From Occultella gossypii (GTDB taxonomy: Bacteria; Actinomycetota; Actinomycetes; Actinomycetales; Beutenbergiaceae): DNA of 64,000 nt. Shown in pieces: positions 3,002 to 32,480 of this stretch. Position numbers and translations under genes: made by a program. Position 1 is the stretch's first letter. Each line of letters starts with the position of its first letter. The stretch lies in assembly GCF_019947135.1 (NCBI RefSeq), contig NZ_JAGSHT010000010.1:186001-250000 (forward strand), in the 5' to 3' direction. The notes beneath the pieces were generated by a model, which was not told where the DNA came from, did no database searches, and saw only the letters and a list, made by a program, of their open reading frames with translations.

Positions 3002-3887
3002 TCCCCGATCGACGTCAGAATCGACGACCGCTGAGGCACCGGCCGAAACCATCATCCCTGCCGATGTGACAGCCGATCCGGTGCCCGAGGTCCCAGCCAA
3101 GCGATCGGTGACGCCCACCGAGCCTCCGGTCGTGTCCGTTCAGAACGTCTCCATCACCTACAGGACTACGTTCGAGGCCGCGCCCACGCTCAAGAGCACC
3201 ATCGTCCGCCTCGGCCGGGGGGAACGGCAGGTGAAGGTCGTCGACGCGATCAAGGACATGTCGTTCGACATCAAGCCAGGTACGTCGGTGGGCATCATCG
3301 GGGCGAACGGAGCCGGGAAGTCGACGCTGATGCGCGCACTTGCCGGAGTCTTGCCTCCCAGCCAGGGACGCATCGAGGTCCGGGGTCGGATCAGCGCGCT
3401 CCTCGCCCTCGGCGTCGGGTTCAATCCGAACCTCACCGGACGGGAGAACGTGATTCTGGGCGGCCTCGCGGCCGGACTGTCACGAAGCCAAGTCAACGAA
3501 CGCGCTGCCGAGGTCGCGGAGTTCGCCGAGATCGGCGACTTCATGGATATGCCGATGCGGACGTACTCCTCGGGTATGTATCAACGCCTGGCATTCTCGG
3601 TATCGGTGCACATGGATCCCGACATCCTGCTCGTGGACGAGGCACTCTCGGCCGGTGACGCAAGTTTCAAGGTCAAGGCGACCGCGAAGATGGCCGAACT
3701 CATGGAGGACGCCCGGGCGATGTTCCTGGTGTCCCACTCGCTCGGTTCGATACGCGAGATGTGCAACGAGGTGCTCTGGATCCACAAGGGCAAACTGATC
3801 ATGCAGGGCTCGCCGCGCCGGGCGATCCGCGCGTACACCAACTTCCTCAAGGTGGGCGAGAACGCCTATACCTTCGAGGACCTCTGA
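2979..3887 (+). CDS. ABC transporter ATP-binding protein for polysaccharide export (Wzt/TagH-like)
   Basis: This 302-residue ATPase is the partner of the permease just upstream. Walker A is GANGAGKST (108-116), the signature is YSSGMYQRLAF (196-206), Walker B is DILLVDEAL (215-223) and the switch histidine is in VSHS (251-254). The first 50 residues are a low-complexity Ala/Pro/Thr/Glu extension. The family motif FNPNLTGRENV (148-158) marks it as the Wzt/TagH branch. There is no C-terminal carbohydrate-binding domain of the kind Wzt uses for chain-end recognition, so it resembles TagH-like or short Wzt proteins. Start GTG 2979 is preceded by AGGGAG. Export of the locus's polymer is the expected role. 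Confidence 0.92.
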   Translation: MSSLSVSDPRSTSESTTAEAPAETIIPADVTADPVPEVPAKRSVTPTEPPVVSVQNVSITYRTTFEAAPTLKSTIVRLGRGERQVKVVDAIKDMSFDIKPGTSVGIIGANGAGKSTLMRALAGVLPPSQGRIEVRGRISALLALGVGFNPNLTGRENVILGGLAAGLSRSQVNERAAEVAEFAEIGDFMDMPMRTYSSGMYQRLAFSVSVHMDPDILLVDEALSAGDASFKVKATAKMAELMEDARAMFLVSHSLGSIREMCNEVLWIHKGKLIMQGSPRRAIRAYTNFLKVGENAYTFEDL

Positions 3888-3894
3888 CGGAAAC

Positions 3895-8404: not shown

Positions 8405-8457
8405 GTCGTGGTCTTTCGGTCGGCGGGCCCGGCGTGGGTTCGATTCCCGGCCATCGT

Positions 8458-8463
8458 TACAAT
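8458..8463 (+). promoter_or_regulatory. Candidate -10 box of the 8516-19225 GT operon
   Basis: TACAAT lies about 52 bases before the ATG at 8516, in the 111-base divergent gap. No convincing -35 box is seen. It would drive the long plus-strand run from 8516 to 19225, where gaps between genes are 15 bases or less. Confidence 0.35.
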
Positions 8464-8515
8464 AGCGTGGCCGTGAGAGCAGGAGCGTGCCGCATCCTGA
8501 TCACCAGGAAGGGAA

Positions 8516-14050: not shown

Positions 14051-16090
14051 ATGATGCACTCGGTGGTCGACGGGCCAACTCGGTTCGAGCGACGGTGGTT
14101 TCTGCGGCTGATGGTTGCCGCCCTGACCGGCCTGCTCCTGGCCGGCACGGGCGTCGTCAGCCAGTCGGCCGTCGCAGCCGTCACAGTCACGCTCGACGGA
14201 CGCGGATTCGGCCACGGGATCGGCATGTCCCAGTACGGCGCTGCCGGCCGGGCCGAAGCGGGCCAGGCCTACAGTCAGATCCTCGCTGCCTACTACCCCG
14301 GCACGACCACCGGATCGCTGGCGGACTCCCAGTCCGTCCGGGTCTGGATCCAGGGAGACACCGACCGACAGACCTGGGTCAGGGCGGAGCCGAACCTCTC
14401 GCTGCGTGTGGGAACCTCGTCGGTCGCGCTCCCGACAACGATCAGTGCCGGGACGGTCACGCTCTGGCGGCTCAGGCTCGTTTCCGGTGCCCTGGTGATC
14501 GAGGCGAACGTGAGCAACACCTGGCGCGCGCCCGGTGTGCCCGGCCTCAGCACGCTTCTCAGCGGTGCGACCGCCGCAGAATTCGTCGCCGGCGACGGCA
14601 CCGTGCAACTGGTCACCTCGACGTACCGCGAGTACCGCGGCGCCGTACGCGCGGTTCGAGTTCCCGGCTCGACCACGGACCTGCGCACAGTTGTGGTCTC
14701 GACCTATGCCAACTATCTACCGTCGGTGGTCACCTCGGAGATGCCGGCGAGCTGGCATATTCAGGCGCTTCGGGCGCAGGCGGTGGCGGCCCGTACCTAC
14801 GCCCGGTTCGACCAGGCCAGCAAGCCCACGTCCGCTTGGTACGACACCTGCGATACGACGTCATGCCAGGTTTTTCAGGGACTGGCGGACTACACCGCCG
14901 CGGGGACGCTCATACGCACCCATACCCATCCACGCACCATCAGCGCTGTGTCGGACACCTCGGGTGTGGTGCTGCTCTACGGCGGGACGCCCGCGTTCAC
15001 CCAGTTCAGCGCATCCAACGGCGGCTACTCGGTGCAAGGGTCTCGGCCCTACCTGACGGCGGCCGCGGACCCTTACGACGGATATGCACCGTGGCGGGTC
15101 ACGCTGACCGGGGCCCAGATCACGGCCGCGTATCCGAGCATCGGAGTGTTCCGGGATCTGACGGTCGCGCGCGACGGTCGCGGCCCGTACGGTGGCCGGC
15201 TCACCTCGGTCACGCTGACCGGCGGCCAGGGTGCCGTCACGATCACCGGGGCGCAGTTCCGGTCCGCGTTCGGCCTGCGCTCCACCCTGCTGTCGGTCAC
15301 GCTCGACGGTGTGCCGCTGAGTTCGCCCCAGCGCGACTGGAACGGTGATCAGCAGCCGGACCTGATCGCACGCGGACCCGACGGAGTTCTCTACGCCTAT
15401 CTCGGCAACGGTCCGGCGAGCTGGCGGTCACGGGTCCCGATCGGACGTGGCTGGCAGAGCATGGGCGCCATGACTCAGGTCTGGAACCTCTCCGGCACCA
15501 GGACCCCGGAACTGATTGCAATCCAACCCTCGACCGCCCAGCTGTTCGTGTACCCCGGTGACGGCCGAGGCGGTTGGGGCACGCCACGCGTGATGGGACG
15601 CGGCTGGCGCGGCTTCGACCAGTTCGTCGGTATCCAGGACTGGTCAGGGCCGGGCAGCACCGGACTGATCGTGCGGAACCGTACCTCCGGCACGCTGTTG
15701 TACTACGCAGCGAACGGCTCCGGAGGCCTGTCCCCCGGCGTCCAGATCGGTACGGGCTGGAACGGGATGGACATGATCTTCGCCGCCGGCGACTGGGACG
15801 GTGACGGCCATGCTGACCTCCTGGCCAGGCAAGCCGCGACCGGGTACCTCTACCTCTACCGCGGAAACGGGCGGGGTGGATTCCTCTCCGGGGCAAGGGT
15901 CGGTACGGGGTGGGGCACCATGGACGCCATGGTGGGCGCCGCGGATTGGGATCAGGACGGCACGGTGGACATCCTGGCCCGCGATGCCGCCACCGGCGCC
16001 CTCTGGTTGTATCCCTCCGATGGAGCCGGGTCCTTCCGTCCTCGCCAGCAGGTGGGCCACGGTTGGACAGGCTTCGACCTGGTTCGCTGA
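14051..16090 (+). CDS. Secreted SpoIID/LytB-domain protein with C-terminal FG-GAP repeats
   Basis: This 679-residue exported protein probably cleaves or remodels peptidoglycan. A signal peptide is visible: basic residues to 19, hydrophobic core LMVAALTGLLLAGTGVV, then an Ala-rich cleavage region near 42. The SpoIID domain has RGFGHGIGMSQYGA (51-64) and SEMPASWHIQALRAQAVAAR (229-248). Glu230 corresponds to the catalytic acid of SpoIID lytic transglycosylases. Residues ~430-679 form repeated FG-GAP-like units (DWNGDQQPDLIAR, DWDGDGHADLLAR, DWDQDGTVDILAR), a likely beta-propeller with Ca-binding Asp clusters. The amidase at 32481 has the same tail. In a non-sporulating actinobacterium the enzyme presumably works on vegetative wall; the propeller may bind the wall polymer (inference). 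Confidence 0.88.
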   Translation: MMHSVVDGPTRFERRWFLRLMVAALTGLLLAGTGVVSQSAVAAVTVTLDGRGFGHGIGMSQYGAAGRAEAGQAYSQILAAYYPGTTTGSLADSQSVRVWIQGDTDRQTWVRAEPNLSLRVGTSSVALPTTISAGTVTLWRLRLVSGALVIEANVSNTWRAPGVPGLSTLLSGATAAEFVAGDGTVQLVTSTYREYRGAVRAVRVPGSTTDLRTVVVSTYANYLPSVVTSEMPASWHIQALRAQAVAARTYARFDQASKPTSAWYDTCDTTSCQVFQGLADYTAAGTLIRTHTHPRTISAVSDTSGVVLLYGGTPAFTQFSASNGGYSVQGSRPYLTAAADPYDGYAPWRVTLTGAQITAAYPSIGVFRDLTVARDGRGPYGGRLTSVTLTGGQGAVTITGAQFRSAFGLRSTLLSVTLDGVPLSSPQRDWNGDQQPDLIARGPDGVLYAYLGNGPASWRSRVPIGRGWQSMGAMTQVWNLSGTRTPELIAIQPSTAQLFVYPGDGRGGWGTPRVMGRGWRGFDQFVGIQDWSGPGSTGLIVRNRTSGTLLYYAANGSGGLSPGVQIGTGWNGMDMIFAAGDWDGDGHADLLARQAATGYLYLYRGNGRGGFLSGARVGTGWGTMDAMVGAADWDQDGTVDILARDAATGALWLYPSDGAGSFRPRQQVGHGWTGFDLVR

Positions 16091-19232: not shown

Positions 19233-20336
19233 TCAGCGGGTCAGGATGGATGCCCCCATCATGCGCAGCGGCGCATCAGCCGCGAAGAGTTGGGTGAGGT
19301 CCCGTGTCACGAGCGTCGCGGGTCGGCCGTGCCGGCGTCGCTGGAGTGCAAGCGAGATCAGCAGTTCCGCGTCGTCGCGTTGTCCGAGGATCTCGTCGAG
19401 GAGCCGGCGGTCGGTGATCGAGAGCACCGCCTCGACGCCCGGCGCGGCGTTGAGCAGACGGCGTGCCACTTTCGCGAGCGCGGCACGCTCAGAAGGCGTC
19501 CAGAACTCCGGATCCGTCCGATTGTGAACGGCACCGAACAGGTGGATTCGGATGTACTTCACGCATGCCGCGCGTCGCTGCTCCAACGACAGTTCCTCGA
19601 ACCACGGCTGCCGCACCAGATGCCGCAGGAATCTGAGCTCGGCCTTGATCGGACGCTGGACGTAGGTGACCCGGTCCCCCGCGTCCTCCCCGATCACGTA
19701 CGCCGGCCCCCACCGGTCGAACACGGTCTTCCCGCCGAACCACAGCCGGGTCACGAAGCCGACGTCGCCCCCCACCTGGGCGCCCTCCTCGAGCCGCAGA
19801 CCGAGTCGGATGATGGCGGCCCGGGAGACCAGCCCGAGAGGCGCGCTCCGGTACGAGAGCCGGTCGGCGACCGGATCCAGGTCCCTACGTCGGAGCGGTC
19901 GGGTTGGTGGGCTCCGAACGATCCTGTGCTCCAACCCCAGCACGAGACGAGCCATCACAGCGTCCGCGCCGGTCCGCCGCGCGAGCCAGAACCATGACGC
20001 GATCGCCCCGGGCAGCAGGGTGTCGTCCGAGCCCATGATGGAGACGTACTCCGCGGTCGCAGCGTCGATTCCCGCGTTGAAAGGTCCTGACGCGCTCCGG
20101 TGGGCGTCGGTGTGTTCGAGGAACCGGACCTTGTCGCGGTGATGGGCGTCGAGCAGTGGGCGGATCTCGTCGGCACCGATGTTGTGACAGACCACCGTGA
20201 GGCGAACACCCTCGCCGTTGCGGTCGAGCACGGATCTGACGGCCCGCGCGATCGGCCGCTCCCTCGAGTGGACAGCGATGATGACGTCGACCCCGACCTC
20301 GTCCGCCGGTTCGTCCACGGTGTCCGGTTCAACCAC
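19233..20336 (-). CDS. Glycosyltransferase family 2
   Basis: This GT-A fold enzyme is about 367 residues. The opening VGVDVIIAVHSRERPIARAV, a mid-strand LTVVCHNIGADEI, GPFNAGIDAATAEYVSIMGS and the DxD-like GSDDTLL identify family 2. There is no C-terminal membrane segment, so it is cytoplasmic. The frame is open to GTG 20408, but that would overlap the upstream GT by 80 bases. I prefer GTG 20336, which overlaps by eight; GTG 20318 is also possible. It forms a two-gene minus-strand unit with the GT at 20329. Linkage and donor unknown. Confidence 0.83.
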   Translation of the reverse strand: MVEPDTVDEPADEVGVDVIIAVHSRERPIARAVRSVLDRNGEGVRLTVVCHNIGADEIRPLLDAHHRDKVRFLEHTDAHRSASGPFNAGIDAATAEYVSIMGSDDTLLPGAIASWFWLARRTGADAVMARLVLGLEHRIVRSPPTRPLRRRDLDPVADRLSYRSAPLGLVSRAAIIRLGLRLEEGAQVGGDVGFVTRLWFGGKTVFDRWGPAYVIGEDAGDRVTYVQRPIKAELRFLRHLVRQPWFEELSLEQRRAACVKYIRIHLFGAVHNRTDPEFWTPSERAALAKVARRLLNAAPGVEAVLSITDRRLLDEILGQRDDAELLISLALQRRRHGRPATLVTRDLTQLFAADAPLRMMGASILTR

Positions 20337-21444
20337 GATGACCCGCTGCGGCCGCGGCGTAGGCAGCGACGTATCCGGCTCCCACGCGGGCAGCCGAGAA
20401 CGCGTCACCGATCGTGCCGGCGACGTCGGAGGCGTTCAGGTGCCGGGTCCGCCGCTCCGTCTCGACGATCGCGTCCGCGTACGCCTCGGCATCCTGGACG
20501 TCCACCAGGGTGCCGACCTCAGGGCGGATGTACTCCCCCTGCCCCCCGGTGGCGCCCACGACCACCGGCCGTCCGTGCACCAGTGCCTCTGCGGCCGAGA
20601 CGCAGAAGTTGTCCGCTCTCGTGGGCAGGAAGAACAGGTCTGCGGCGTCGAGCGCCGCCGAGACGCCCGCCGAGTCGGCGGTCCCGGCGAGTCGGATGAG
20701 GTGGCCGACCTTGCGCTTGCGAGCCCGCCGGACGACCTGGTCGTGCAACTCGCCGCCGCCCACCCACGTGAGCTCCGCCGTCACCCCCCGGCGCGCGAGC
20801 TCCGCGATCGTGTCGACGGCGAGGAGCGGGTCCTTGCGCTCGACGAGGCCGCCGACGGCGACCAGTCGCATCGGCGCACGTGGCCGCATCGGTCGTGGCG
20901 TGAGGTGTTCGCGCGGTGGCACTATGCATGGCACGACGGCGGTGGCCGCGTCGCCGCGGACGGCACGGATCGGGGCGGCGAGGTATTCACAGACCCCGGT
21001 GACGACGTCGGGCATCCGCAGCAGCGGCTTGAGCAGGGGCAGCGCCGCCCGCCCGGCCAGTGGAAGCGTCGCCGGCGTGGTGAGGCCGGACCAGTGCTCG
21101 GTGTGCACCCAGGGCACGTCGGGGCGGTGCATCCGGAACGGCAGGAGCGACGAGAACGCCATCGTGTGGACGACGTCCGCACCGGCTAGGAGTACGCCTA
21201 ACGAACGGGCGACGGTCAGGATATCGAGCGGGGAGCGGGTGGACATCGGCACCCGCCGGACCCGGATGCCGTTGTGCGTGAATGCACGAGAGCCGTCGTC
21301 CTGGTGCGGCGGGACGAGGTGCAACACGTCCACCGAGTCGATCCCCGGCCGCGCGGCGATCGCGGCCACGTCCTTCTCCACGAACGCGCCACTGCTGGTG
21401 GCGCGTTCGGTGGGGAACCAGGTTGTGACGGCGACGATCCGCAT
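20329..21444 (-). CDS. Glycosyltransferase, GT4
   Basis: This is a 371-residue canonical GT4 enzyme. It opens VAVTTWFPTERATSSGAFVE, has WVHTEHWSGLTTPA in the acceptor half, and VGGLVERKDPLLAVDTIAEL, WVGGGELHDQV and LPTRADNFCVSAAEALVHGR (EX7E region) in the donor half. The ending RPVVVGATGGQGEYI is typical of the family. It is the first gene of the short minus-strand pair 21444-19233, divergent from the toroid/epimerase pair that starts at 21563. The 118-base gap between them must hold both promoters, but I see no clear boxes. Confidence 0.87.
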   Translation of the reverse strand: MRIVAVTTWFPTERATSSGAFVEKDVAAIAARPGIDSVDVLHLVPPHQDDGSRAFTHNGIRVRRVPMSTRSPLDILTVARSLGVLLAGADVVHTMAFSSLLPFRMHRPDVPWVHTEHWSGLTTPATLPLAGRAALPLLKPLLRMPDVVTGVCEYLAAPIRAVRGDAATAVVPCIVPPREHLTPRPMRPRAPMRLVAVGGLVERKDPLLAVDTIAELARRGVTAELTWVGGGELHDQVVRRARKRKVGHLIRLAGTADSAGVSAALDAADLFFLPTRADNFCVSAAEALVHGRPVVVGATGGQGEYIRPEVGTLVDVQDAEAYADAIVETERRTRHLNASDVAGTIGDAFSAARVGAGYVAAYAAAAAGHRG

Positions 21445-21562: not shown

Positions 21563-22648
21563 ATGCCCGCAACCATCCGCGCCACGGTCGGCGAGCTGCT
21601 GGACACCTACCAAGGTATGGATGGTTTCTCGACGGACGAACACCACGATGAAGTTCAGCAACACCCTATGGCCGAGGCCAAGTACGTCCTTGCCTGCGTC
21701 GAAATGTTCAGAAGCTCGCTCATGAGTGAGGACGAACTGACCACTCGCATGGTGGAGTCGTTGACGCGCCTCGAGGCTCATCGGGTGTGCGACGCCGGTG
21801 TTACCGGGTGGGGCCTCGGCTTCGCCTACGACGCCGGTTCGGCCGATGAGACGTATGTGATCACGACTGCACTAGTGCTCCACGCACTCCACAGCGTGGT
21901 GAGGTTCGCGCCCGCTGCGGCTCCTCCGGGATGGCACGAGCTGCTGCGGTCGGCCACTGGTTACCTCCTCCGGGCAGCGCGACTGGAGACTTCGGACGGT
22001 GACCTGATCGCCTACTCTCCGGGCAATGCTCTCCCGACCTACAACGTCACCGCGATGTGGAGTGGCGTCCTCACCCAGGTCGTCGGGCCGCGCCACCCCG
22101 ACGCGGCCAGCATCCGACAGGTGGCGAGCGACCTCCTGGGACGTCGCATCCCCGGGGGAGGTTGGACCTACGGACCCGGATCCAGCCGCGCAGACCTCCT
22201 TCACACGTGCTACATCGGCGTCGGGCTGACGATGGCGCTCGCCGACCGCACCGACGAGCTGGACCGCATGCTCCTTGAGGACATCCTGCGATTCAGCCGT
22301 GCCCCCATCTGGGTCGATCGTTACGATGTACACGCCCTCTCCGACCTCCTGACGGGTCAGGTGCCAGGACTCAAACGAACAGTTCACGTGGTAGATGGGA
22401 ACGCCCTGGTCGGCTTCGATGCACCCGCCCGGTCTTGGTCGATGGGCGAACTCCTTGTCGTCATCTCCGAGGCGGCTGCTCGCCCCACGACGGGACGCTA
22501 CTGGATGACCCAATTGCGCCCGTTGGCACGATCGACCATTGACGAGCAACTGCCAGAGACCTGGTTCCGACACTCGATGCACATAGCGCACGGCCTCGCG
22601 AGCACACTGCGCGTCCTTCGTGCGGATCAGGACCGACGTGCGGCCTGA
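21563..22648 (+). CDS. Predicted alpha/alpha-toroid protein of unknown function
   Basis: This 361-residue protein matches no named family I can assign. Its helices carry repeated aromatic/Gly motifs like those of alpha/alpha-toroid (terpenoid cyclase, prenyltransferase and lyase) folds: VTGWGLGFAYDAGSADETYV (80-99), followed by TTALVLHALH, and IPGGGWTYGPGSSRADLLHT (196-215), followed by CYIGVGLTMAL. There is no signal peptide or membrane segment, so it is cytoplasmic. It overlaps the C5-epimerase-like gene by a few bases, and both are visibly lower in G+C (about 60%) than their neighbours. A role on the same uronate-containing sugar chain, for example as lyase, epimerase partner or length sensor, is inference from pairing. 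Confidence 0.72.
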   Translation: MPATIRATVGELLDTYQGMDGFSTDEHHDEVQQHPMAEAKYVLACVEMFRSSLMSEDELTTRMVESLTRLEAHRVCDAGVTGWGLGFAYDAGSADETYVITTALVLHALHSVVRFAPAAAPPGWHELLRSATGYLLRAARLETSDGDLIAYSPGNALPTYNVTAMWSGVLTQVVGPRHPDAASIRQVASDLLGRRIPGGGWTYGPGSSRADLLHTCYIGVGLTMALADRTDELDRMLLEDILRFSRAPIWVDRYDVHALSDLLTGQVPGLKRTVHVVDGNALVGFDAPARSWSMGELLVVISEAAARPTTGRYWMTQLRPLARSTIDEQLPETWFRHSMHIAHGLASTLRVLRADQDRRAA

Positions 22649-24131
22649 CCTTCGCCGTTGGCTACGGGCACGCCGACGCCCGTCCGGGGCGATGCATCGA
22701 GGACCTGGCGAGTCGGTTGCTGCCTCGTCCGCGGATCGTCGAATCGACGCCGTCGAATACGAGCCGGATCGCTCGCCCGACATGCCCCCGTTCGTCCACT
22801 TCGCAAAGATGCAGGACTTCTACCGTTTCGAGTTCCTTCCTGACGGCTACCCCGGTCGCGCAGAGCCTGATGGGTCGGTCTTTCCACACCCCATCTATGG
22901 CACCTATGCACTCATTGACTACCTGAAACAGTATGCGAGGGAGCCACGACCGGAACTGCTGCACGCAATTTCGCGCGTCGCTCACGCCGCAATCTCGCGC
23001 ATGAGCGAGTTCAACAACTCCCTTGTGTTCTGGTACGAGGCGAATCCGAGCATTGGTGCCCGCCTCTATGCGGACCACTACTCCGGATTGACACAGGCAT
23101 ACTACGCAGTGCAACTGGCCCGAGCCGGCAGGGTTCTTGAGGACGCTGCGGTACGCGCTGCAGCGGAGTCCGTGTTCCGCAGCCTCCTGGTCCCAGCCGA
23201 AGACGGCGGCGTGCTTCACAGCACGCCGGCTGGCCCAGTGATCGCCGAAGTCCCACAGACGCCGAACAGTTGGATCCTGAACGGTTGGCTCTCGGCGCTC
23301 GCTTCTGTGCAGGAGTTCTCCGACATCACTGGGTTGGCGGAGGCCGGAGACCTCCTCCACGACAGCACTCGAACCATGGCACGCGTTCTCCACCTATATG
23401 ACGAACCGGTGAAGCGGACCAGCCGATACGGCCTGACCGGTTTCGTGTACCTTCGCCTTCGCTTCGAAAACCGCCCACAGTCCCTACAGGACGTGACCCT
23501 GTACATCGCCGGCGAGCGGGACATCGTACTCCCAGTCGGATCAGGCACGCGTTGGCAGCCCTACGTCTTTGCCGCGGACATGGTGGGCACCACTCCCAAG
23601 GCGACGACAGTTCGGTTCAACGCAGTCCTCTCGCTCGCGAGTGCGCCAGAACCCAACCGGGTCGGCTTCACGGCCATGACGGACCAGCCGGCAACGGTGA
23701 TTCTCGAGGTGATGCTCGGCACATACGAGCCGACTGCATCGTCACCCGTGAACGCTCAGTGGAAGGAAGCCGGCAGGACCACGATTCCTTCAGGGACCTC
23801 ACACTGCATCCTCGATATCCCGCAAGCCGTCGTCGACTCGACTGTCTATCCCACCAACTTCGCCAAGAGGATCGATGGGCAGAACGTCAACGTCTACCAC
23901 AGCATCCACATTCAGCGACTACGGCAGCTCCACGGTCGGACCGGCGTCGACGACCTCCGCACGTGGGCGGACAAGTGGCACGGATACATCACCGACTGGG
24001 CGACGATGCCGACGTACGCCGGGCTGGCCTTCCGGGACCCGATCAGTGGGAAGGTACGATCCGTGACGGACCAGCTTCCGCAGCCGAGTGGTTCTGGGTC
24101 GGGAACTGATCAGCCAGTCACGCGCAAGTAG
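22638..24131 (+). CDS. D-glucuronyl C5-epimerase family protein with a beta-rich insertion
   Basis: This protein of about 497 residues is homologous to the catalytic (C-terminal) half of animal heparan-sulfate glucuronyl C5-epimerase, which flips D-glucuronate to L-iduronate within a chain. Matches in order (numbering from GTG 22638): YGTYALIDY (87-95), SGLTQAYYAVQLARAG (149-164), NSWILNGWLSAL (210-221), VLHLYDEPVKRTSRYGL (251-267) and YHSIHIQRLRQL (420-431) followed by W447. The animal enzyme has LYD...IYDLRH and YHTTHINQLQLL at the last two places. Between these two motifs there are about 150 residues rather than roughly 30, an apparent beta-rich insertion. No signal peptide is visible, so it would act in the cytosol. 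GTG 22638 has AGGA just upstream; GTG 22620 and ATG 22692 are alternatives. The 3' end overlaps the converging GT by 22 bases. Confidence 0.8.
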   Translation: MRPDLRRWLRARRRPSGAMHRGPGESVAASSADRRIDAVEYEPDRSPDMPPFVHFAKMQDFYRFEFLPDGYPGRAEPDGSVFPHPIYGTYALIDYLKQYAREPRPELLHAISRVAHAAISRMSEFNNSLVFWYEANPSIGARLYADHYSGLTQAYYAVQLARAGRVLEDAAVRAAAESVFRSLLVPAEDGGVLHSTPAGPVIAEVPQTPNSWILNGWLSALASVQEFSDITGLAEAGDLLHDSTRTMARVLHLYDEPVKRTSRYGLTGFVYLRLRFENRPQSLQDVTLYIAGERDIVLPVGSGTRWQPYVFAADMVGTTPKATTVRFNAVLSLASAPEPNRVGFTAMTDQPATVILEVMLGTYEPTASSPVNAQWKEAGRTTIPSGTSHCILDIPQAVVDSTVYPTNFAKRIDGQNVNVYHSIHIQRLRQLHGRTGVDDLRTWADKWHGYITDWATMPTYAGLAFRDPISGKVRSVTDQLPQPSGSGSGTDQPVTRK

Positions 24132-25564
24132 AGCTCCCTCAGCTTGACCTCTTGGCTCTCCCAGGAGTACCCGTTCTCGAGCGAACTCCTTGTGATCGTC
24201 GCGCGATACTCGTCCAGCGATCCGAAGACCTCCTTGAGCGCCCTCGCGCAGTCGGCGGAATCACCGAAGGAGAATGTCTCGCCCACGCCGGTCCGCCGCA
24301 CGAAGGCGCCCATCTCCTGAAGGTCGCTGACCACGATCGGCAACCCGGCGAAGACGTAGTCGAACAGTTTGTTCGGCAGGGCCATCTCGTGGTTCGGGAT
24401 GTCACCGATCATCGGGTGCACCCCGACATCGGCGGAACGCAGATAGCTGAGCACCTCCTCGGGCTTCACAGGATCGAGCAGGTGCACCCGGTCGGCAACG
24501 CCGAGCTCGGCCGCTCGTCTGGCCAACTCGCGTGAGAGCTTGTGCGTCACGCTGGGGACACAGACGATGGCAAGGTGCATCTCCGGCATGAAGGTCAGTG
24601 CCTCGACCACGGTTGCGACGCCTCGTTTCTGTGCCGTCGAACCGGAGTACGCGAGGAGCGGCACATCGCTGGCCAGACCACAATCCGTGCGGATGTCTGA
24701 CGGCGCCTCCGCGATATCCCCGACCACTGGGGCGTTGAGAACTACCGTCGGACGGTCCCGTAGTCGGTAGACCCGTTGCAGAGCGTCCGCGATCGACTCA
24801 CTCACTGTGATGACCGAATCAGCAGCCCTGATGTAGTGCCTTTCCATCTGGGCCCACGCGCGTCGTTGCCGCTCGGAGGTACGCACCGCACCGACCACGA
24901 ACTCATGCGCGTCGTAGATCAACGTGGGCCGGGCTCTGTGTGCACGCATGTGGTTGGTGGCGTTGACCGCTGCCTTGAGGACGTGAGCGTCGTGAGCGTG
25001 GATGATGTCAGGCTTCTGCCGCCAGATCTCACGCGTGAAGGACAGGCTCAGGTCAGAGAACTGGGTCACCTCGTGACGCCAGTCCAGCCGCCGCGGAATG
25101 GCATCGGGATCGGACTGCTGCTCCCAGTACCGGCGGATGCGCTCTTCCCTGCGCCCTTGGAAGCGAACCCGCCATTCGAAGAACAGCCGGCGCAACCTGA
25201 GCACCGCGCGTACGGGACGCGGGTACCGAGACGCGCGCAACCCCGCCAGCGTGTTCTGGTAGCGAGCCCATTCGAGATCGGACTCCGAGATGAATCCGGG
25301 GAAACCCGACCGATAGGCCCGGCGCTCCCGCTCCAGCCTCGCCTTCGTGGCCGTCATCCCGTAGGGCAGCGGAATGCCCAATGTCGTGACCTCGCCGAGC
25401 CTGCCGCGAACTGGCTCCGTGATCCCTTGCAGGCCGTAGAGCAACGTCACATCAAACCCGAGCTGCTGGACGGACTGCGCGGACTTTCGAACGCGCGCAT
25501 CGGCAGCGATGTCGTGATTGACGATCATCACGACCTTCCGCCGATCACCCCGCTCGGCTCTCAT
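24110..25564 (-). CDS. Glycosyltransferase, GT4-like (DxRVxK group, sister of the enzyme at 12617)
   Basis: This GT-B enzyme is about 484 residues. It opens VVMIVNHDIAADARVRKSAQ, has IIHAHDAHVLKAAV and IYDAHEFVVGAV, then AYSGSTAQKRGVATVVEALT and IPNHEMALPNKLFDYVFAGL. Identity with the enzyme at 12617 is high along the whole length, including the basic linker around residues 80-140. I chose ATG 25564; the frame extends to GTG 25585 without a better ribosome site. Its G+C is somewhat low, like the toroid/epimerase pair it converges on. That may mean the three came together, or that the GT was copied later. Donor unknown. Confidence 0.85.
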   Translation of the reverse strand: MRAERGDRRKVVMIVNHDIAADARVRKSAQSVQQLGFDVTLLYGLQGITEPVRGRLGEVTTLGIPLPYGMTATKARLERERRAYRSGFPGFISESDLEWARYQNTLAGLRASRYPRPVRAVLRLRRLFFEWRVRFQGRREERIRRYWEQQSDPDAIPRRLDWRHEVTQFSDLSLSFTREIWRQKPDIIHAHDAHVLKAAVNATNHMRAHRARPTLIYDAHEFVVGAVRTSERQRRAWAQMERHYIRAADSVITVSESIADALQRVYRLRDRPTVVLNAPVVGDIAEAPSDIRTDCGLASDVPLLAYSGSTAQKRGVATVVEALTFMPEMHLAIVCVPSVTHKLSRELARRAAELGVADRVHLLDPVKPEEVLSYLRSADVGVHPMIGDIPNHEMALPNKLFDYVFAGLPIVVSDLQEMGAFVRRTGVGETFSFGDSADCARALKEVFGSLDEYRATITRSSLENGYSWESQEVKLRELYLRVTG

Positions 25565-25699
25565 AGCCTTCGGTACAAATGCCACAGTTCACGCCCCGTT
25601 GTCTCAGTGAAACGATTGTCATCCTAGGTGCTGCCGAATCGGTCCATTACCACGCCGGCCACCGGCCCGCTCGTTCACGGTGTTGGGTGCGTCACCAGG

Positions 25700-26830
25700 T
25701 CACTGCACCGACCGGGTCAGGCACGCCAGAGCAGACTCCCATGCGCTCACCTGAGTGCCCGCGGAGAGCTCCGATGCGGCTCCATGCGACGCCCACTTCC
25801 AGTCGCGGATCAGCCGTTCATCGAGGCCCTCCAGCGCATCGGCCAACGAACGCGGGTTGAAGCCCTCCGTAACCGCACCCAGAGAGTGCTCGCGCACGAG
25901 CGCCGCCATCTCGGGCGATGGTCCGACCATGATCCCGACGCGGGCCTGGACGTAGTCGAAGAACTTGTTCGGCAGGGTCCACTCGTAGTTGAACGTGACG
26001 GGCGGCAGCACGAACACCCCGACGTCGTAGTCGTTCAGTGTCCGGACCAGATCGGCATAAGGCACCGGGTCGTGCACGGTGACGCCGGGCACCCCCGCTG
26101 CCTGCGCCCGGATCTCTGCGAGGTATGTCGGGTCGTTCGGCATCAGGTACAGGTCGAGCGTCACATCGGCCCGTGTCAACCGCACGGCATCGATCATCAG
26201 CCCGAGGTCGCGGTTGCGGCGGGCGTTGCCGGAATGCACGAGACGCAGTGGCGTGTGCACCGGGGTCGGCTCAAGGTCGTGGAACGGGGTGGCGTTCGGC
26301 ACCACGGTCGCGTCGATGCCGAACTCCCGCAGGTACTCATCGGCCAGTCCCTGTCCCACGGTGGTCACCGACGCCGCCCGAGCGACGTACTCCCGGCAGA
26401 GCCAGCGGTAGTAGGGGGCCACGAACAGCCGCCAGCGCCAGGACTCCTCGTTCTCACGGGGTGCGTACTCGTGCAGGTCCACGTGCACCCCGGCTCGCGG
26501 GCGCAGGCTCAGCGCCAGCGGCACGGTGTCGGCGTCGTTGGCGAGGACCACGTCGTGGCCCCCCGTCGGCAGAACTGACCGCAGGTGCGCGATGACCGCG
26601 TTGGTGCGCTGCACGGCGCCATAGTGGCGCAGGATGAGGGCACGGCGGTCCTTGTGCCAGGCGACCAGGTGCGAGGGGATCTCATGGTGGGCCGCAACGC
26701 CGTCGGGCGCAGGCCCGTACCCGACCGTGGTCACGTCGTAGGTCTGCGTGAACAGACGAACCTGCTTGAGGACCCGCGCGTCCTCGTGGATGGGCGAGAA
26801 GGCAATGATCAGGAGCGACGGTCGGCTCAC
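25700..26830 (-). CDS. Glycosyltransferase, GT4-like
   Basis: This is a 376-residue GT-B enzyme. It opens LLIIAFSPIHEDARVLKQVR, so it shares the DARVxK motif of the locus in a shorter protein without the basic linker. It then has VLANDADTVPLAL, HVDLHEYAPRENEESWRW, VHSGNARRNRDLGLMIDAV and the donor-site stretch YEWTLPNKFFDYVQARVGIM. It begins four bases inside the end of the upstream GT and closes the minus-strand operon 30116-25700 led by the ABC flippase. The 114 bases after its stop hold nothing I can recognise. Donor unknown. Confidence 0.86.
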   Translation of the reverse strand: MSRPSLLIIAFSPIHEDARVLKQVRLFTQTYDVTTVGYGPAPDGVAAHHEIPSHLVAWHKDRRALILRHYGAVQRTNAVIAHLRSVLPTGGHDVVLANDADTVPLALSLRPRAGVHVDLHEYAPRENEESWRWRLFVAPYYRWLCREYVARAASVTTVGQGLADEYLREFGIDATVVPNATPFHDLEPTPVHTPLRLVHSGNARRNRDLGLMIDAVRLTRADVTLDLYLMPNDPTYLAEIRAQAAGVPGVTVHDPVPYADLVRTLNDYDVGVFVLPPVTFNYEWTLPNKFFDYVQARVGIMVGPSPEMAALVREHSLGAVTEGFNPRSLADALEGLDERLIRDWKWASHGAASELSAGTQVSAWESALACLTRSVQ

Positions 26831-28311
26831 GGCCCCGCCTGTAGGATGCGCCGATAGAGGCCGAGCAGGTGCTCGACCTCATGTTCCCAACTGAGGTCGG
26901 TGGCGGCTGCTCGCGAGGCCGCCCGGTACCGCTCGGGGTTCGCGAGCACCTTCGTCATCGCCGCCGCGAGATCCTCGGGCCGGTCAGAGTCGAAGACGAC
27001 GCCGACGGCGTACTCATTGACGATGCCTGCGGTGTCCGGGAGATCCGCGGCGGCGATCGGCAGGCCTGCGTGGATCGACTCGAACAGCTTGTTCGGCAGC
27101 GAGTAGTAGTAGCTCAGGCAGGTGGGTCGCACGTACACGACGGCAAGGTCGCCGTCGGCCAGCGCGTCCGCGACCTCGGCGGACGGGACCCTACCGACGA
27201 AATGGACCCGATCGCCAAGCCCTGCTGTGCGGGCGCGCGCGGCGAGTGGTTCGACGTAGTCGGGTTCGCCGTACCCGAGAAGCGCGAGGTGGACGTCGCG
27301 GTCCATCAGGGTCAGGGCCTCGATCGTCTCCTCGATACCGCGGTTCGTCGTGAGCCGGCCGCTGTATGCGATGACCTTGGTGTCCGCGGGTAGTCCGGCG
27401 AGGTCACGGAGACGGCCGGTGCCGGCCGCGTTCGGCCGGTCACGGCCCGCGGGGATATTCCGGACGAGCACCGGGAAGCGGTCCAGTCCGTAGGTGCGCT
27501 GGAGCCACCTGGCGATGCTCGGGGACACGGTGATGACCCCTGCGGCGCGGCGGATGGCGAGGCGCTCGATCAGATGCTCCACGTGGGGTGCCACCGGACG
27601 CTTGCGGACGTTGCGATGGCGCCACAGTTCGTGGGCGTCGTAGATCATGCGTGCGCCGGTGCGACGGGCGATCACCATCGCTGGAGCGAGTGTGTTGCCG
27701 TCGTTGGCGTGGACGATGTCCGGTCGCCAGCGCGGTACGGCTCCGACGGCCCCCGCCCAGTACACGGCGAGACTGACGGTCCGATAGACCTTGAGCCAGA
27801 GATCGAAGACCGTAGCGAACGCCCGGGCGCGCAAATGCGCGGTCTCAGTCGGTTCAACCAGCGGCGGCTGCGCCCCCGCGAACGCAGATTCCGGCGCGAT
27901 CGTGCTCTCCGTGCTAGACGGGCCGCGTGCCGTGGGGACCTCCGTCGCAGAAGCCTCATCGCTCTCGGCCGCGAGGGCGTCGTCGGCCTCCTCTGCCGGG
28001 CGTACCTCGCCACGTTCGGCGAGGCGGTTCACCCGCGCCATCACCCAGCGATGGGCACCGGCCAACCACGGCGCGGAGCGGGCCAGCTCGAACTCGGGCA
28101 GGCGCTCGAGTTCCACGCCGGTCTCGAGTCGTTCGGTCGTGACCGGGTAGCCCGAGCGGGACCGGGCCACTGCAAAGATCTTCACGACTGCACCGGCCGC
28201 GTGCAGGCTCGCCGCGGTCTTGAGCACCCGGGAGTCGGCGTGCGCATCGTTGTAGACGAGCACGGCGACGCGGGCGGGCCGGCCGTCGACCCGCAGGTCC
28301 TGCGCCGTCAC
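26827..28311 (-). CDS. Glycosyltransferase, GT4-like (DxRVxK group) with a disordered inter-strand insertion
   Basis: This is a 494-residue GT-B enzyme. It opens VAVLVYNDAHADSRVLKTAA, has DIVHANDGNTLAPAMVIARR, IYDAHELWRHRNV and VIAYSGRLTTNRGIEETIEA, and the donor stretch YSLPNKLFESIHAGLPIAAA. Residues ~85-150 are a Glu/Ala/Ser/Thr-rich insertion, likely disordered, replacing the basic linker seen in its paralogues. The frame is open upstream, but GTG 28311 overlaps the ABC transporter stop (GTGA) and gives the expected short N-terminus, so I use it. It is translationally coupled to the flippase gene. Confidence 0.85.
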   Translation of the reverse strand: MTAQDLRVDGRPARVAVLVYNDAHADSRVLKTAASLHAAGAVVKIFAVARSRSGYPVTTERLETGVELERLPEFELARSAPWLAGAHRWVMARVNRLAERGEVRPAEEADDALAAESDEASATEVPTARGPSSTESTIAPESAFAGAQPPLVEPTETAHLRARAFATVFDLWLKVYRTVSLAVYWAGAVGAVPRWRPDIVHANDGNTLAPAMVIARRTGARMIYDAHELWRHRNVRKRPVAPHVEHLIERLAIRRAAGVITVSPSIARWLQRTYGLDRFPVLVRNIPAGRDRPNAAGTGRLRDLAGLPADTKVIAYSGRLTTNRGIEETIEALTLMDRDVHLALLGYGEPDYVEPLAARARTAGLGDRVHFVGRVPSAEVADALADGDLAVVYVRPTCLSYYYSLPNKLFESIHAGLPIAAADLPDTAGIVNEYAVGVVFDSDRPEDLAAAMTKVLANPERYRAASRAAATDLSWEHEVEHLLGLYRRILQAGP

Positions 28312-30116
28312 TGTGGCTCGATCTCCCCGGTCAGGCCGGCCAGAGCAGCCTGCTGGGCGAAGTCCGCCTCGGCGGCGACGACCTCGTCGAACGTGCCGTG
28401 TGCCACGAGCTCCCCGTCGCGCATGAAGCACACGATGTCGCTGTGCCGGATCGTGGCGAGCCGGTGTGCGACCACGACCATCGTGACGTCGCCGCGCAGT
28501 TCGCGGATCGCCGAGGTCACGGCCGCCTCGGTGGAGGTGTCCAGGGCGCTGGTGGCCTCGTCCATGATCAGCACGAGGGGATCGTTGTACAGGGCCCGTG
28601 CGATACCGATCCGCTGCCGCTGGCCACCGGACAGGTTCAGCCCGCGCTCGCCGATCCGGGCGTGGATCCCGCCCTCGCGCGCCTCGATCACGTCAAGGAT
28701 CTGCGCCCGGGCCAGCGCGCGGCGGACCCGGTCGGAGTCCACCTGCTCCGGGATCCATGTCAGCGCCACGTTCTGCGCCACGGTGGAGTCGAACAGGGAG
28801 ACCTCCTGCGGCACGTAGCCCACGCGGGATCGCCAGTCGTCGAGCACGGTGCCCATCGGGGTCCGCCCGACCAGGATCTGCCCCGAACTCGGCTCGAGCA
28901 GACCGAGCATCAGGTCTACAAGCGTCGACTTGCCCGAGCCCGAAGCACCGACGAGCGCCAATGAGCTCCCGAACGGGAGCGTCATGCTCACCCCGCGGAC
29001 TGCCTCGGTCGATCCGCTCGGGTAGGTGAAACTCACATCGTCAAGTCTGAGTCGGTCCGCCTCGGCGGGGATCGGTGCGGTCGTACCCGCGGCGGGCCTC
29101 CCCTCGCGGCGCTGATCGCCCTTGCGGATCTCGTCGAGGACCTGCTGGGCGAACGGCATCGAGGCGCCGGTCTGCGCCATGATCGACTGGAATCGGGTCA
29201 GTGACGGCACGATCCGGAACCCGGCCACCCCGAAGAGTGCGACCGCGCTGAGGGCACCCGTGACTCCGTCCTGCAGATATCCGACGCCGCCCCCGATCGC
29301 GAGGCCGCCGATGAGGCCGGCCTCGAGGACGTAGCGGGGCACCACGCCCAGGAACGACATGTTCGCCCGGGCCTGCGAGCTCTTCAGACGCACTTTCCGC
29401 ACAACGCCCGCCACCTCGGGCCCCTTGCCGCGCAGGGTGATCTCCTTGAGCGAGTGCACCATCTCGCTGACCAGGCGGACCGAACGGGTGGAGTAGTTCC
29501 GGTTCACGCGGCCGGCCTCCACGGCCTTGCGGAGCACCCACAGGTACAGGAACGCACCGATGATGCCGAAGTACGCGATGGCCACGAGTGCGATCACCGG
29601 CTGGGCGATGATGAGAACCATCAGCACGGCCACGAACGTGAAGATCTCGCCGGACAGCATGGCGGCCGGAATGAGGACACCGGAAACGGTGGTGGCGACC
29701 CCAACGTCCGTGGAGCGGACCAGATCCGTGGAGTTGCGCCCGAGGCGGTCCGTCCACGGTGACTCGAAGAACGCGTTGAGGAGCTGGCTGCCGAGGTCCT
29801 GTTCGAACCGGGCGAACCGGCGGGTGGCGAAGTACTGCAGGGTGATCGCGCACACGCTCTTGGCGATGATCAGAGCCCCGACGATCACGAGCATGTTCCG
29901 AAAGTCGGCGGGCTCGCTGAGCGTCCAATCGAGGACCGGGACGGTCAGCTTGGTGCCGGAGATCATCGGGGCCATGGTGATCGCGAGCAGGCCTAGGGCC
30001 GCCACGTCGAGGATGGACAGCGCCGCGGACAGTGCGGCGAAGGTCACGATGAAGCGAGAACTCCCGCGCGGCAGCACGGCGAGCAGGTCACGAACGATGC
30101 GCCACAGGGCGGCCAT
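28308..30116 (-). CDS. ABC exporter with fused membrane and ATPase domains (MsbA/PglK-type flippase)
   Basis: This is a 602-residue half-transporter that works as a homodimer. The membrane domain covers residues 1-330 with six hydrophobic segments. The ATPase domain has Walker A GASGSGKST (390-398), signature LSGGQRQRIGIARAL (495-509), Walker B LVLIMDEATSALD (514-526) and the switch VVVAHRL. The EITLRGKGPE loop and overall layout fit lipid-linked oligosaccharide flippases such as PglK. It heads the operon 30116-25700 with two GTs, so it probably flips a short lipid-linked saccharide made by them, separate from the Wzm/Wzt system at 2144. A multidrug or lipid substrate is the alternative. Confidence 0.87.
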   Translation of the reverse strand: MAALWRIVRDLLAVLPRGSSRFIVTFAALSAALSILDVAALGLLAITMAPMISGTKLTVPVLDWTLSEPADFRNMLVIVGALIIAKSVCAITLQYFATRRFARFEQDLGSQLLNAFFESPWTDRLGRNSTDLVRSTDVGVATTVSGVLIPAAMLSGEIFTFVAVLMVLIIAQPVIALVAIAYFGIIGAFLYLWVLRKAVEAGRVNRNYSTRSVRLVSEMVHSLKEITLRGKGPEVAGVVRKVRLKSSQARANMSFLGVVPRYVLEAGLIGGLAIGGGVGYLQDGVTGALSAVALFGVAGFRIVPSLTRFQSIMAQTGASMPFAQQVLDEIRKGDQRREGRPAAGTTAPIPAEADRLRLDDVSFTYPSGSTEAVRGVSMTLPFGSSLALVGASGSGKSTLVDLMLGLLEPSSGQILVGRTPMGTVLDDWRSRVGYVPQEVSLFDSTVAQNVALTWIPEQVDSDRVRRALARAQILDVIEAREGGIHARIGERGLNLSGGQRQRIGIARALYNDPLVLIMDEATSALDTSTEAAVTSAIRELRGDVTMVVVAHRLATIRHSDIVCFMRDGELVAHGTFDEVVAAEADFAQQAALAGLTGEIEPQ

Positions 30117-30356: not shown

Positions 30357-31313
30357 GTGACCGTCGACGTCCGGAGGTTGATGGGGACCCGCACCGGTGC
30401 GATCCTCAGGGTGGTGGCCATGGGCCTTGTCCTGGCGATGACCTGCGTCGCCGGGAACCGGATCCTCGGCTCCGAGGGCGTGAAAACGGGTCAGGTCACC
30501 GCCGTTGGCCACGCGGTCACACAGGTCGGACGCCAGGGTGTGCCGAATGACCTGACGCCGTCTCTCGAGGAGGCCGGTGCCGACCAACCGAGCACGTACG
30601 GCACCGGTTGTCACCTGCCGGTTCCAGGGACCGCTCCGGTCGGGTGCACGAGTGGCTCGCAATCGGCACAACTCGACGTCGCTCTGTTCGGGGACTCCCA
30701 TGCGGCGAACTGGCACCCGGCTTTGGAAGCCCTCGCGGCGCGCGGGGACATGTACGTCACCTCTCACACCAAGAGTGGCTGCCCGGCCTACCATGTGTCC
30801 GACGACTACATGACCGAGCCGTATCCGGAGTGTGCAACCTGGCGCGAGGGCGTCCTCACCAGGATCGAGGCGGACCCGCCGGACATCGTGGTGATGTCCG
30901 GCCTCCCTCGGGGCACGGCGGCCCAAGTGCCGCTGCCGGAGTGGAGCGCCGGTATCACCGCGACCGTCCGAAGACTGTCGGTTGTCACCACCGTCCTGGT
31001 GGTCGCGGACACGCCGAACTTCGAGGTCGCCCCCGTCGCTTGCCTGTCCACCAACATGGACGACTATGGGGCCTGCGATCCGCTGCGGGCCGACGCGATC
31101 AATGACGAGTACGCCGCCGAGGAGCGGGCCGCGACAACGGCCGCTGGCGGCGCGTATGCAGACCTCACGGACCGCTTCTGCACGGACACTTGTCCTGTCA
31201 TCCAGCAGAACATCCTCGTGTACCGGGACGACCACCACCTGACCGCGACCTTCAGCGCCTCGATGGCGGACGTCCTCGGCGAGGCCATCACCTCGGCCCT
31301 CGCGACCTCCTAG
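30357..31313 (+). CDS. Membrane-anchored SGNH-domain protein (polysaccharide O-acetylation type)
   Basis: This 318-residue protein is the free-standing equivalent of the SGNH half of OafA-type acyltransferases. One membrane segment (residues ~16-33, ILRVVAMGLVLAMTCVAG) puts the rest outside the cell. Block I is VALFGDSHAANWHPALEALA, with Ser as nucleophile, and block V is YRDDHHLTATFSA, with the Asp-x-x-His. Six or more cysteines suggest disulfides. It has no acyltransferase-3 membrane domain, so it would need a partner to bring acetyl groups across, perhaps the protein at 1-1962, or it may act as an esterase. GTG 30357 lacks a ribosome site but follows a -10 box. Confidence 0.82.
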   Translation: MTVDVRRLMGTRTGAILRVVAMGLVLAMTCVAGNRILGSEGVKTGQVTAVGHAVTQVGRQGVPNDLTPSLEEAGADQPSTYGTGCHLPVPGTAPVGCTSGSQSAQLDVALFGDSHAANWHPALEALAARGDMYVTSHTKSGCPAYHVSDDYMTEPYPECATWREGVLTRIEADPPDIVVMSGLPRGTAAQVPLPEWSAGITATVRRLSVVTTVLVVADTPNFEVAPVACLSTNMDDYGACDPLRADAINDEYAAEERAATTAAGGAYADLTDRFCTDTCPVIQQNILVYRDDHHLTATFSASMADVLGEAITSALATS

Positions 31314-31314
31314 C

Positions 31315-32460
31315 TCAGCCGGCCGCTGCTCCGCCCGCACTCAGGACAACGTCCGCGCTCCGGCGCGCCACGGCTCGCAGGGAGCGATTGGCTTCGACCC
31401 AGCGGGCTAGACGGCTCCCCTCGTTGTCCGGGGGCTGGTGGTCCAGTGCGGCGATCATCGCCTCAGCCACGGCGTCGACGTCATATCGGCAGCGCCAGCC
31501 CATTCCCTCGCTCTCGAGGAGTTCGCCTGCTTCCCCCGGGCCTGCGTACACCACCGGCGTGCCCGTGCCCAGCGCGGCGAGCACCTTTGTCGGGAACGCG
31601 AAGTCGTATTTCTGCCCAGGTCGCAGCGACACGACGGCGGCCCGTGCCCCCCGCAGCCACGCAGCAGACTCCGCCGGGGGTGCAAGCAAGTGGAAGTCAA
31701 CCGACCTGGGCGCGAGGTCGCGCGCCAGATCCTGCAACCTCGGCCATGAACTTCCCTGCCCAAGGAACACCAGGCGCGCATCAGGGTGCTGCTCCAGCAC
31801 TTGCGGCATCGCCCGAACGAAGATGTCGGCGCCCTGCCACTCCGACGCCGTGCCGGCGTACAACAGGAACCTGCCCTCGCCCCGGGACTCGCCCTCGGGC
31901 GTGAACACGGTGGTGTCCACGCCATTCCCCACGGTGACCACCTCGCGGGCGCCAAGCTCGCGCACCCGGGCGGTGACGCCGTCGGACACGGACAGCACGG
32001 CCCGCGCGCCCCGCAGCACCGATCGCTCAAGAGCGCGCACAACCCCCACCACGAGCCGGGGCGCTCCGGTCGACTCGGTGGCGTCGGACCAGACGTCCGC
32101 CGCATTGTACACGTACGGGATCCGACGCAGTGCGCACACGAGACGAACCACTGCGCCGGTGGTCGGTGGCGGCTCGACCACCACCACCTCTGGTCGCGGT
32201 GTCAATGCTAGGCGGACCAGCAGTGGGAGGTCGAAGCTCATGTACTCCAGGTACCCACGCACGTACCCGGTGCGGTCGCGCCGCACGGGCCACCGGAGCA
32301 CCCGCAGTCTTGGCGTCCCACCCGGGTCGGTCAGGTCGGCGCCCTCCGGTGGAATGACCGTCAGAACCGTGACGTCCACGGCCTCGGCGAGCGCCGCCGC
32401 AAGTGCGGAGAGCCGGAACGACGCAGCGGAGACCTCCGGTGCGAAGATCCGGCTGACCAT
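31315..32460 (-). CDS. Glycosyltransferase, GT4
   Basis: This is a 381-residue GT-B enzyme. It opens MVSRIFAPEVSAASFRLSAL and has VVVVEPPPTTGAVV, YVYNAADVWSDATESTGA, LYAGTASEWQGADIFVRAM and LVFLGQGSSWPRL. The donor-site segment is FAFPTKVLAALGTGTPVVYA. The opening and the AADVWSDA motif resemble WcaI/WbuB-type GT4 enzymes. The frame is open far upstream into the amidase gene, but ATG 32460 lies 20 bases after the amidase stop and begins exactly at the first strand. It follows the amidase in one minus-strand unit and ends one base after the converging SGNH gene. Confidence 0.85.
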   Translation of the reverse strand: MVSRIFAPEVSAASFRLSALAAALAEAVDVTVLTVIPPEGADLTDPGGTPRLRVLRWPVRRDRTGYVRGYLEYMSFDLPLLVRLALTPRPEVVVVEPPPTTGAVVRLVCALRRIPYVYNAADVWSDATESTGAPRLVVGVVRALERSVLRGARAVLSVSDGVTARVRELGAREVVTVGNGVDTTVFTPEGESRGEGRFLLYAGTASEWQGADIFVRAMPQVLEQHPDARLVFLGQGSSWPRLQDLARDLAPRSVDFHLLAPPAESAAWLRGARAAVVSLRPGQKYDFAFPTKVLAALGTGTPVVYAGPGEAGELLESEGMGWRCRYDVDAVAEAMIAALDHQPPDNEGSRLARWVEANRSLRAVARRSADVVLSAGGAAAG

Positions 32461-32480
32461 CGCTACCCCGGACCGGCGGC

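Follow-up and report, generated by a model that had tools for sequence, protein, structure and literature searches.

A candidate cytosolic uronosyl C5-epimerase with an inserted domain in a teichuronic-type polymer locus of Occultella gossypii

The window analysed here is a stretch of 64,000 nucleotides from Occultella gossypii, corresponding to positions 186001-250000 of contig C32 (NZ_JAGSHT010000010.1) of its 5.84 Mb genome (G000). The window encodes EPI, a homologue of the animal glucuronyl C5-epimerase GLCE, and, directly before it, a second protein, TOR. The two open reading frames (ORFs) share 11 bases, in agreement with a preliminary description of this DNA. The start of EPI is taken at the ATG at 22638; the ORF list places it at a GTG at 22620. 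The two genes and the sites within EPI are listed in window coordinates.

21563-22648, + strand: TOR, 361 amino acids, predicted to be mainly helical (poor model), no Pfam or NCBIfam match
22638-24131, + strand: EPI, PF06662 uronosyl C5-epimerase homologue, 497 amino acids (Pfam match; family profile to GLCE structures)
23247-23249, + strand: codon of E204, equivalent to GLCE Glu499 (alignments)
23250-23252, + strand: codon of V205, at the GLCE Tyr500 position, residue not kept (36-row alignment)
23280-23282, + strand: codon of N215, equivalent to GLCE Asn510 (alignments)
23427-23429, + strand: codon of Y264, equivalent to GLCE Tyr560 (alignments)
23430-23894, + strand: insertion of 155 residues between Y264 and Y420 (36-row alignment; model secondary structure)
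23895-23897, + strand: codon of Y420, equivalent to GLCE Tyr578 (alignments)

EPI, its active site and its inserted domain

EPI is a member of Pfam family PF06662 (D-glucuronyl C5-epimerase), which it matches at E 9.7e-19 with 68 bits over a cut-off of 23.3. No other Pfam family scores above its cut-off in EPI. A search of the PDB with the EPI sequence alone gives no match, and an eight-row family profile, made of three proteins that carry the insertion (insert-type) and five other members of PF06662, is needed to reach zebrafish and human GLCE (E 5e-44 and 3e-42). The C5-epimerase homologue that had been proposed at 22638-24131 is borne out by both the family and the structure searches. Among named records, the nearest is Occultella glacieicola NZ_SMNA01000003.1, with 83% identity over EPI.

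Residues 499, 500, 510, 560 and 578 are named as catalytic in GLCE in the available part of PMC13308652. Counted along the printed human chain, these are Glu, Tyr, Asn, Tyr and Tyr. Four of the five align with residues of EPI, namely E204, N215, Y264 and Y420. Each of the four insert-type proteins has all of them, even at 30% identity, and W132, Q153, P206 and G216 are invariant across the eight profile rows. These four stand in the same order as in GLCE. Contrary to the preliminary description, the Tyr560 equivalent is Y264 in SRYGL and not in HLYD. YGTYALIDY, which had been put forward as a family motif, is not conserved across the PF06662 rows. As for the catalytic tyrosines, Y264 and Y420 are kept and the Tyr500 position is occupied by Val, as judged from the alignment. 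This V205 is a point against EPI being an epimerase, and Tyr is found there in the insert-type protein of genome G751. Val occupies this column in 9 of the 36 aligned rows, six of which are insert-free bacterial members, and nine insert-free rows have no Glu in the Glu column; the family is therefore variable at the Glu499 and Tyr500 columns. The 36-row alignment omits L021 and L027 (contig-edge fragments), L001 (the same gene as L042C6), L009 (the same gene as L004), the phylum-scan matches without loci and the partial matches of the order scan.

Y264 and Y420 are separated by 155 residues in EPI, in O. glacieicola (G003) and in MAG62, and by 152 in G751. The same spacing is 9-17 residues in the other 32 rows, including human and zebrafish GLCE (17 in GLCE). 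The structure model predicts strands at residues 267 to 393 and mostly helices elsewhere in EPI. The insert can thus be assigned, with fair confidence, as beta-rich and set into the catalytic part of the protein, a domain that had gone unnoticed in the preliminary description. In a tree built without the insert, the four insert-type proteins group as a single clade (bootstrap 100; Shimodaira-Hasegawa-like approximate likelihood ratio test 99). Based on its place between Y264 and Y420, the inserted domain most likely helps to bind the substrate at the cleft.

The replaced Tyr500 and a large insertion next to two catalytic tyrosines would also fit a protein that keeps the fold and is no longer an epimerase, being uronate-binding, lyase-like or otherwise changed, with the insert blocking or reshaping the cleft. 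The model of EPI is fair (mean predicted local distance difference test score, pLDDT, 55.9) and its input alignment is shallow (3 rows). With this model, Foldseek gives no match at E 0.001 or better; the best matches are weak and mostly to other (alpha/alpha) sugar enzymes, and GLCE ranks 37th (E 0.03). These results too count against an epimerase. The retention of the four catalytic residues in every insert-type protein argues in the opposite direction and makes a change to a non-epimerase quite improbable. EPI is judged with good probability to be an active uronosyl C5-epimerase of some kind.

The best mean hydropathy over 19 residues within the first 60 windows is 0.05 for EPI and 0.74 for TOR, compared to 1.87 for a control, the SpoIID-domain protein at 14051. 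By this crude test, neither protein has a strongly hydrophobic N-terminal segment, consistent with the earlier view that neither carries a signal peptide.

The diacetamido sugar pathway and the polymer locus

All five enzyme types of the pathway to uridine diphosphate (UDP)-2,3-diacetamido-2,3-dideoxymannuronic acid (UDP-ManNAc3NAcA), as set out in the available part of PMC10622841, are encoded at C32:180536-185750, which is outside the window and 23-28 kb upstream of EPI. The dehydrogenase is closest to UDP-N-acetylmannosamine (UDP-ManNAc) dehydrogenases, with 255 bits versus 141 for the best UDP-glucose model, and its best structure match is 4r16. The 2-epimerase has UDP-2,3-diacetamido-2,3-dideoxy-glucuronic acid 2-epimerase as its best PDB match (E 7e-102; next kind, 6e-67). 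The best match of the hexapeptide acetyltransferase is the lipopolysaccharide acetyltransferase 3mqg (E 6e-40), and an acetylation step belongs to this pathway. The oxidoreductase is of the Gfo/Idh/MocA family, and the DegT aminotransferase has WbpE among its PDB matches (E 3e-59). The 2-epimerase and acetyltransferase are the firmest of these predicted assignments, and the oxidoreductase and the aminotransferase are assigned at family level. Three observations weigh against the pathway assignment. The dehydrogenase passes no equivalog cut-off, seven chains outrank WbpE for the aminotransferase, and no chain named WbpB is among the PDB matches of the oxidoreductase, for which 'WbpB-type' is a label only.

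The likely substrate of EPI is a 2,3-diacetamido-uronic residue, because the dehydrogenase near the window is UDP-ManNAc-like and all five pathway enzyme types are present. This residue is favoured over glucuronic acid (GlcA) by the locus. The preliminary description had suggested an iduronate-containing, heparosan-like polymer. Such a polymer is not favoured, as the single PF00984 gene in the neighbourhood most resembles UDP-ManNAc dehydrogenases and the locus holds no UDP-glucose dehydrogenase.

EPI could instead have the ordinary specificity of its family and convert GlcA to L-iduronic acid (IdoA) in the polymer of this locus. The family is named for GlcA, on which both GLCE and the RED65 enzyme act according to the available part of PMC13308652. 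The UDP-GlcA would come from dehydrogenases encoded on contigs C6 or C33, and the extra glycosyltransferases of the locus could add GlcA. The genome has three PF00984 genes, two of which are UDP-glucose-dehydrogenase-like and lie on C6 and C33. The highest scores of the C33 dehydrogenase are with UDP-glucose dehydrogenase models but stay under the cut-offs, and the C6 dehydrogenase resembles it, as judged by eye. The presence of these genes elsewhere in the genome is a point against a diacetamido substrate. However, a second PF06662 gene, which is insert-free (L042:14362-15273, on C6), lies ~15 kb from the C6 dehydrogenase gene in an exopolysaccharide cluster that also encodes glycosyltransferases and proteins of Wzy type and of Wzz type (chain length), and from this gene content the GlcA-to-IdoA step would be expected there. 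The UDP-ManNAc kind of the sole PF00984 gene near the window and the recurrence of the insert-type clade beside diacetamido-uronate genes in G751 likewise make GlcA a rather doubtful substrate for EPI. The contrast between C6 and C32 is not clean, because the C6 cluster also holds a DegT aminotransferase (39%) and a UDP-N-acetylglucosamine (UDP-GlcNAc)-type 2-epimerase (31% identical to the C32 ones). The C32 oxidoreductase and acetyltransferase have no match in the 32 kb searched at the C6 cluster.

The polymer genes around EPI in the window are listed next, including two ATP-binding cassette (ABC) exporters and a LytR-CpsA-Psr (LCP) protein.

2144-3887, + strand: second exporter, with an ABC-2 membrane protein at 2144-3001 (below the Pfam cut-off) and an ATPase at 2979-3887
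19233-20408, - strand: GT2 glycosyltransferase, among the ManNAc3NAcA genes in both same-genus genomes without EPI
20329-21444, - strand: GT4-type glycosyltransferase, among the ManNAc3NAcA genes in both same-genus genomes without EPI
24110-25585, - strand: GT4-type glycosyltransferase; genomes without EPI show only ~32% identical paralogue matches
25700-26830, - strand: GT4-type glycosyltransferase (weak Pfam scores), shared polymer gene set
26827-28431, - strand: GT4-type glycosyltransferase, shared polymer gene set
28308-30116, - strand: fused ABC exporter (match to the ATPase domain; membrane domain assigned to the N-terminal part)
31315-32766, - strand: GT4-type glycosyltransferase, shared polymer gene set
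38878-40059, + strand: LCP protein, also beside polymer genes in G001 and G002

LCP proteins attach wall polymers. This gene content supports the earlier description of glycosyltransferases and two exporters around EPI in a teichuronic-type polymer locus. G001 and G002 are genomes of the same genus without TOR and EPI. In G001, the window-flanking genes and the five pathway genes are interleaved within 18 kb. Named by their window starts, they run: dehydrogenase, glycosyltransferases 19233 and 20329, 2-epimerase, glycosyltransferases 25700 and 26827, exporter 28308, glycosyltransferase 31315, oxidoreductase, aminotransferase, acetyltransferase and then genes 36743 and 38878. G002 has the same order up to a contig end, with four of the five pathway genes; the dehydrogenase was not seen there. 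The exporter at 28308-30116 is 86% identical in both genomes. Because of this interleaving, the glycosyltransferases and exporter that flank EPI are taken to belong to the ManNAc3NAcA pathway. In the O. gossypii genome, further glycosyltransferase genes, TOR, EPI and glycosyltransferase 24110 stand between these parts. The GC content is 0.63-0.64 at 22001-26000 (TOR, EPI and the next glycosyltransferase) versus 0.69 on either side, and 2001-4000 dips too. The drop at 22001-26000 would fit a later acquisition.

The polymer region also encodes two large FG-GAP-repeat proteins, joined to a SpoIID domain (14051-16090) or an amidase domain (32481-35450). An SGNH domain protein at 30357-31313 may serve the polymer locus in O-acetyl transfer or as an esterase. 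Long coding frames at 196-1086, 1111-2067 and 7247-8476 have no Pfam match above the cut-off.

Recurrence of insert-type proteins and the partner TOR

Of 396 genomes sampled from the phylum, 31 carry PF06662, the window genome included, and the family is therefore not rare, contrary to what had been stated. In a sample of 396 genomes of the order, the EPI profile has matches in eight, three of them (G000, G003 and G751) over most of the length. MAG62 (L010) has a further insert-type member. G751 belongs to another family, and its insert-type EPI is 30% identical. There, the dehydrogenase, acetyltransferase, aminotransferase and oxidoreductase lie 3-7 kb to one side of EPI and the 2-epimerase 11 kb to the other side. 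Pathway genes lie near the PF06662 gene in three of four insert-type genomes, two of them from a single genus; of the set, the stretch of G003 examined covers just the acetyltransferase and part of the aminotransferase. Of three insert-free PF06662 genes compared with the oxidoreductase, none is near it (G000, on a different contig; G022, 2.4 Mb apart; G043, 0.36 Mb apart), and these are small numbers.

Two aspects of the distribution weigh against a link between EPI and this sugar. The EPI of MAG62 sits among unrelated genes and not in a polymer locus, and a close relative of the oxidoreductase is on another contig. In addition, 11 of 24 genomes have near-full-length matches of at least 70% identity to the acetyltransferase. 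The ManNAc3NAcA set thus extends far beyond the genomes with EPI, and co-occurrence by itself proves little. As a predictor of EPI, the set was rejected for the same reason.

A protein with an SGGKDS motif adjoins the insert-type EPI in O. glacieicola (L009:11733-13469), directly after it, and in G751 (G751:C5:147882-149603), directly before it. The two copies are 61% identical, and no match was found in the genome of the window. We take the motif to be asparagine-synthetase-like, and Pfam, NCBIfam and the PDB gave no supporting match. The protein might amidate uronic acids. A scan of 396 genomes of the order gave matches to it in 14, and in four of these (G003, G751, G655 and G722) the match reaches E 1e-90 or better. 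All five pathway genes, but no EPI, lie near it in G722. In the stretch of G655 examined, only distant (31%) relatives of the dehydrogenase and 2-epimerase are near it, and there is no EPI. G751 also encodes a 501-amino-acid protein without a known family, convergent with EPI (G751:C5:150989-152491, - strand; L070/L071). A neighbour of the SGGKDS protein in G722 is 53% identical to it.

TOR has no match in Pfam or NCBIfam, and no PDB chain scores below E 0.5. Its model is poor (mean pLDDT 42.6, from 2 sequences), and with this model Foldseek gives weak matches, the best of which (E 0.12) is to a non-toroid; they do not show the alpha/alpha-toroid fold named in the preliminary description. A degenerate PF06662 paralogue (HSMHI versus HSIHI) was considered and rejected, with hhalign probabilities of 2.6% and 0.1%. 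TOR is present in 2 of 99 relatives and in 2 of the 396 genomes of the order, and the pair is G000 and G003 in each sample; in G003 (O. glacieicola) it lies beside EPI in the same order. TOR is probably a polymer-handling partner. The overlapping reading frames and the order kept in O. glacieicola would also suit a single complex of TOR and EPI, in which TOR is a substrate-holding or second catalytic half, an arrangement that is compatible with the other readings. The stretches examined around EPI in G751 and MAG62 hold no TOR match, and TOR has no profile similarity to the PF06662 family rows, which leaves such a complex improbable.

Proposed function and relation to known epimerases

We propose that EPI is a cytosolic, domain-inserted uronosyl C5-epimerase in a teichuronic-type locus with a UDP-ManNAc3NAcA-type sugar, and we give this explanation as a whole a probability of about one half. 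The gene content for the five-enzyme pathway is present, and the pathway would make UDP-ManNAc3NAcA from UDP-GlcNAc. The flanking glycosyltransferases would assemble the carrier-bound polymer within the cytosol. EPI would then take off and re-add the C5 proton of a uronic residue within the glycan, with E204, N215, Y264 and Y420 as the putative active-site set. If this residue is ManNAc3NAcA, the change would be from D-manno to L-gulo. An ABC exporter would move the changed polymer out, and an LCP protein would tie it to the wall. More tentatively, EPI may found a subfamily that converts D-ManNAc3NAcA to L-GulNAc3NAcA (2,3-diacetamido-2,3-dideoxy-L-guluronic acid) in a cytosolic, carrier-linked teichuronic acid, with the insert reading the diamino sugar. 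EPI itself appears to be a later addition to an actinobacterial teichuronic-type locus.

Animal GLCE (PDB 4pw2, 4pxq and 6hzz) shares with EPI the helical catalytic domain of PF06662 and the equivalents of Glu499, Asn510, Tyr560 and Tyr578 in order. EPI differs in having Val at Tyr500, a beta-rich insert of 155 residues where GLCE has 17, no visible export signal and a different sugar pathway in its locus. In GLCE, the beta domains come before the helical one, according to the available part of PMC13308652, whereas the beta domain of EPI is inserted within the catalytic part. The same source, in the part available, describes the glucuronyl C5-epimerase of Bermanella marisrubri RED65, whose GLCE mechanism was assigned by alignment and which was assayed on O-desulfated heparin. 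It resembles EPI as a bacterial member, by description and not by sequence. Agl32 of Halobacterium salinarum carries out C5-epimerisation of a lipid-linked glycan before export (PMC13308652, available part), as proposed for EPI. Agl32 is described there as lacking the GLCE catalytic residues, of which EPI has four of five, and the two are set apart by that description.

The actinobacterial ManNAc3NAcA teichuronic acid (Utr) of Streptomyces griseus has been assigned to the same enzyme set in the available part of PMC13274773. By that description, the Utr and EPI loci share a dehydrogenase, oxidase, aminotransferase, acetyltransferase and 2-epimerase, along with glycosyltransferases. No C5-epimerase is among the Utr proteins described in that part, and the sugars are inferred there to be D-configured.

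The alginate C5-epimerases AlgG and AlgE are beta-helix proteins. A polymer-level change from D-manno to L-gulo by EPI would be chemically parallel to theirs, but they belong to a different family, and EPI matches no Pfam family other than its own.

One identified bacterial glucuronyl C5-epimerase is named in the available part of PMC13308652, and polymer-level sugar conversion is called rare there. A limited literature search found no report of a C5-epimerase linked with a teichuronic polymer, and absence elsewhere is not claimed. Nor did it find a report for PF06662 or for diacetamido guluronic acid with WbpI. What may be new here, going by the sequence, is a beta-rich insert that separates Y264 from Y420, and a flipped sugar not previously known for the family. 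The insert-free paralogue on C6 provides a built-in comparison within the same genome.

If the proposed function is correct, a GLCE-type enzyme with an inserted domain that acts on a sugar other than glucuronate would extend what the family is known to catalyse, and it would be a source of L-configured diamino uronic acids. A wall glycan of this class is reported as a receptor of antibacterial particles in the available part of PMC13274773. EPI would give actinobacteria an added way to change their wall glycan.

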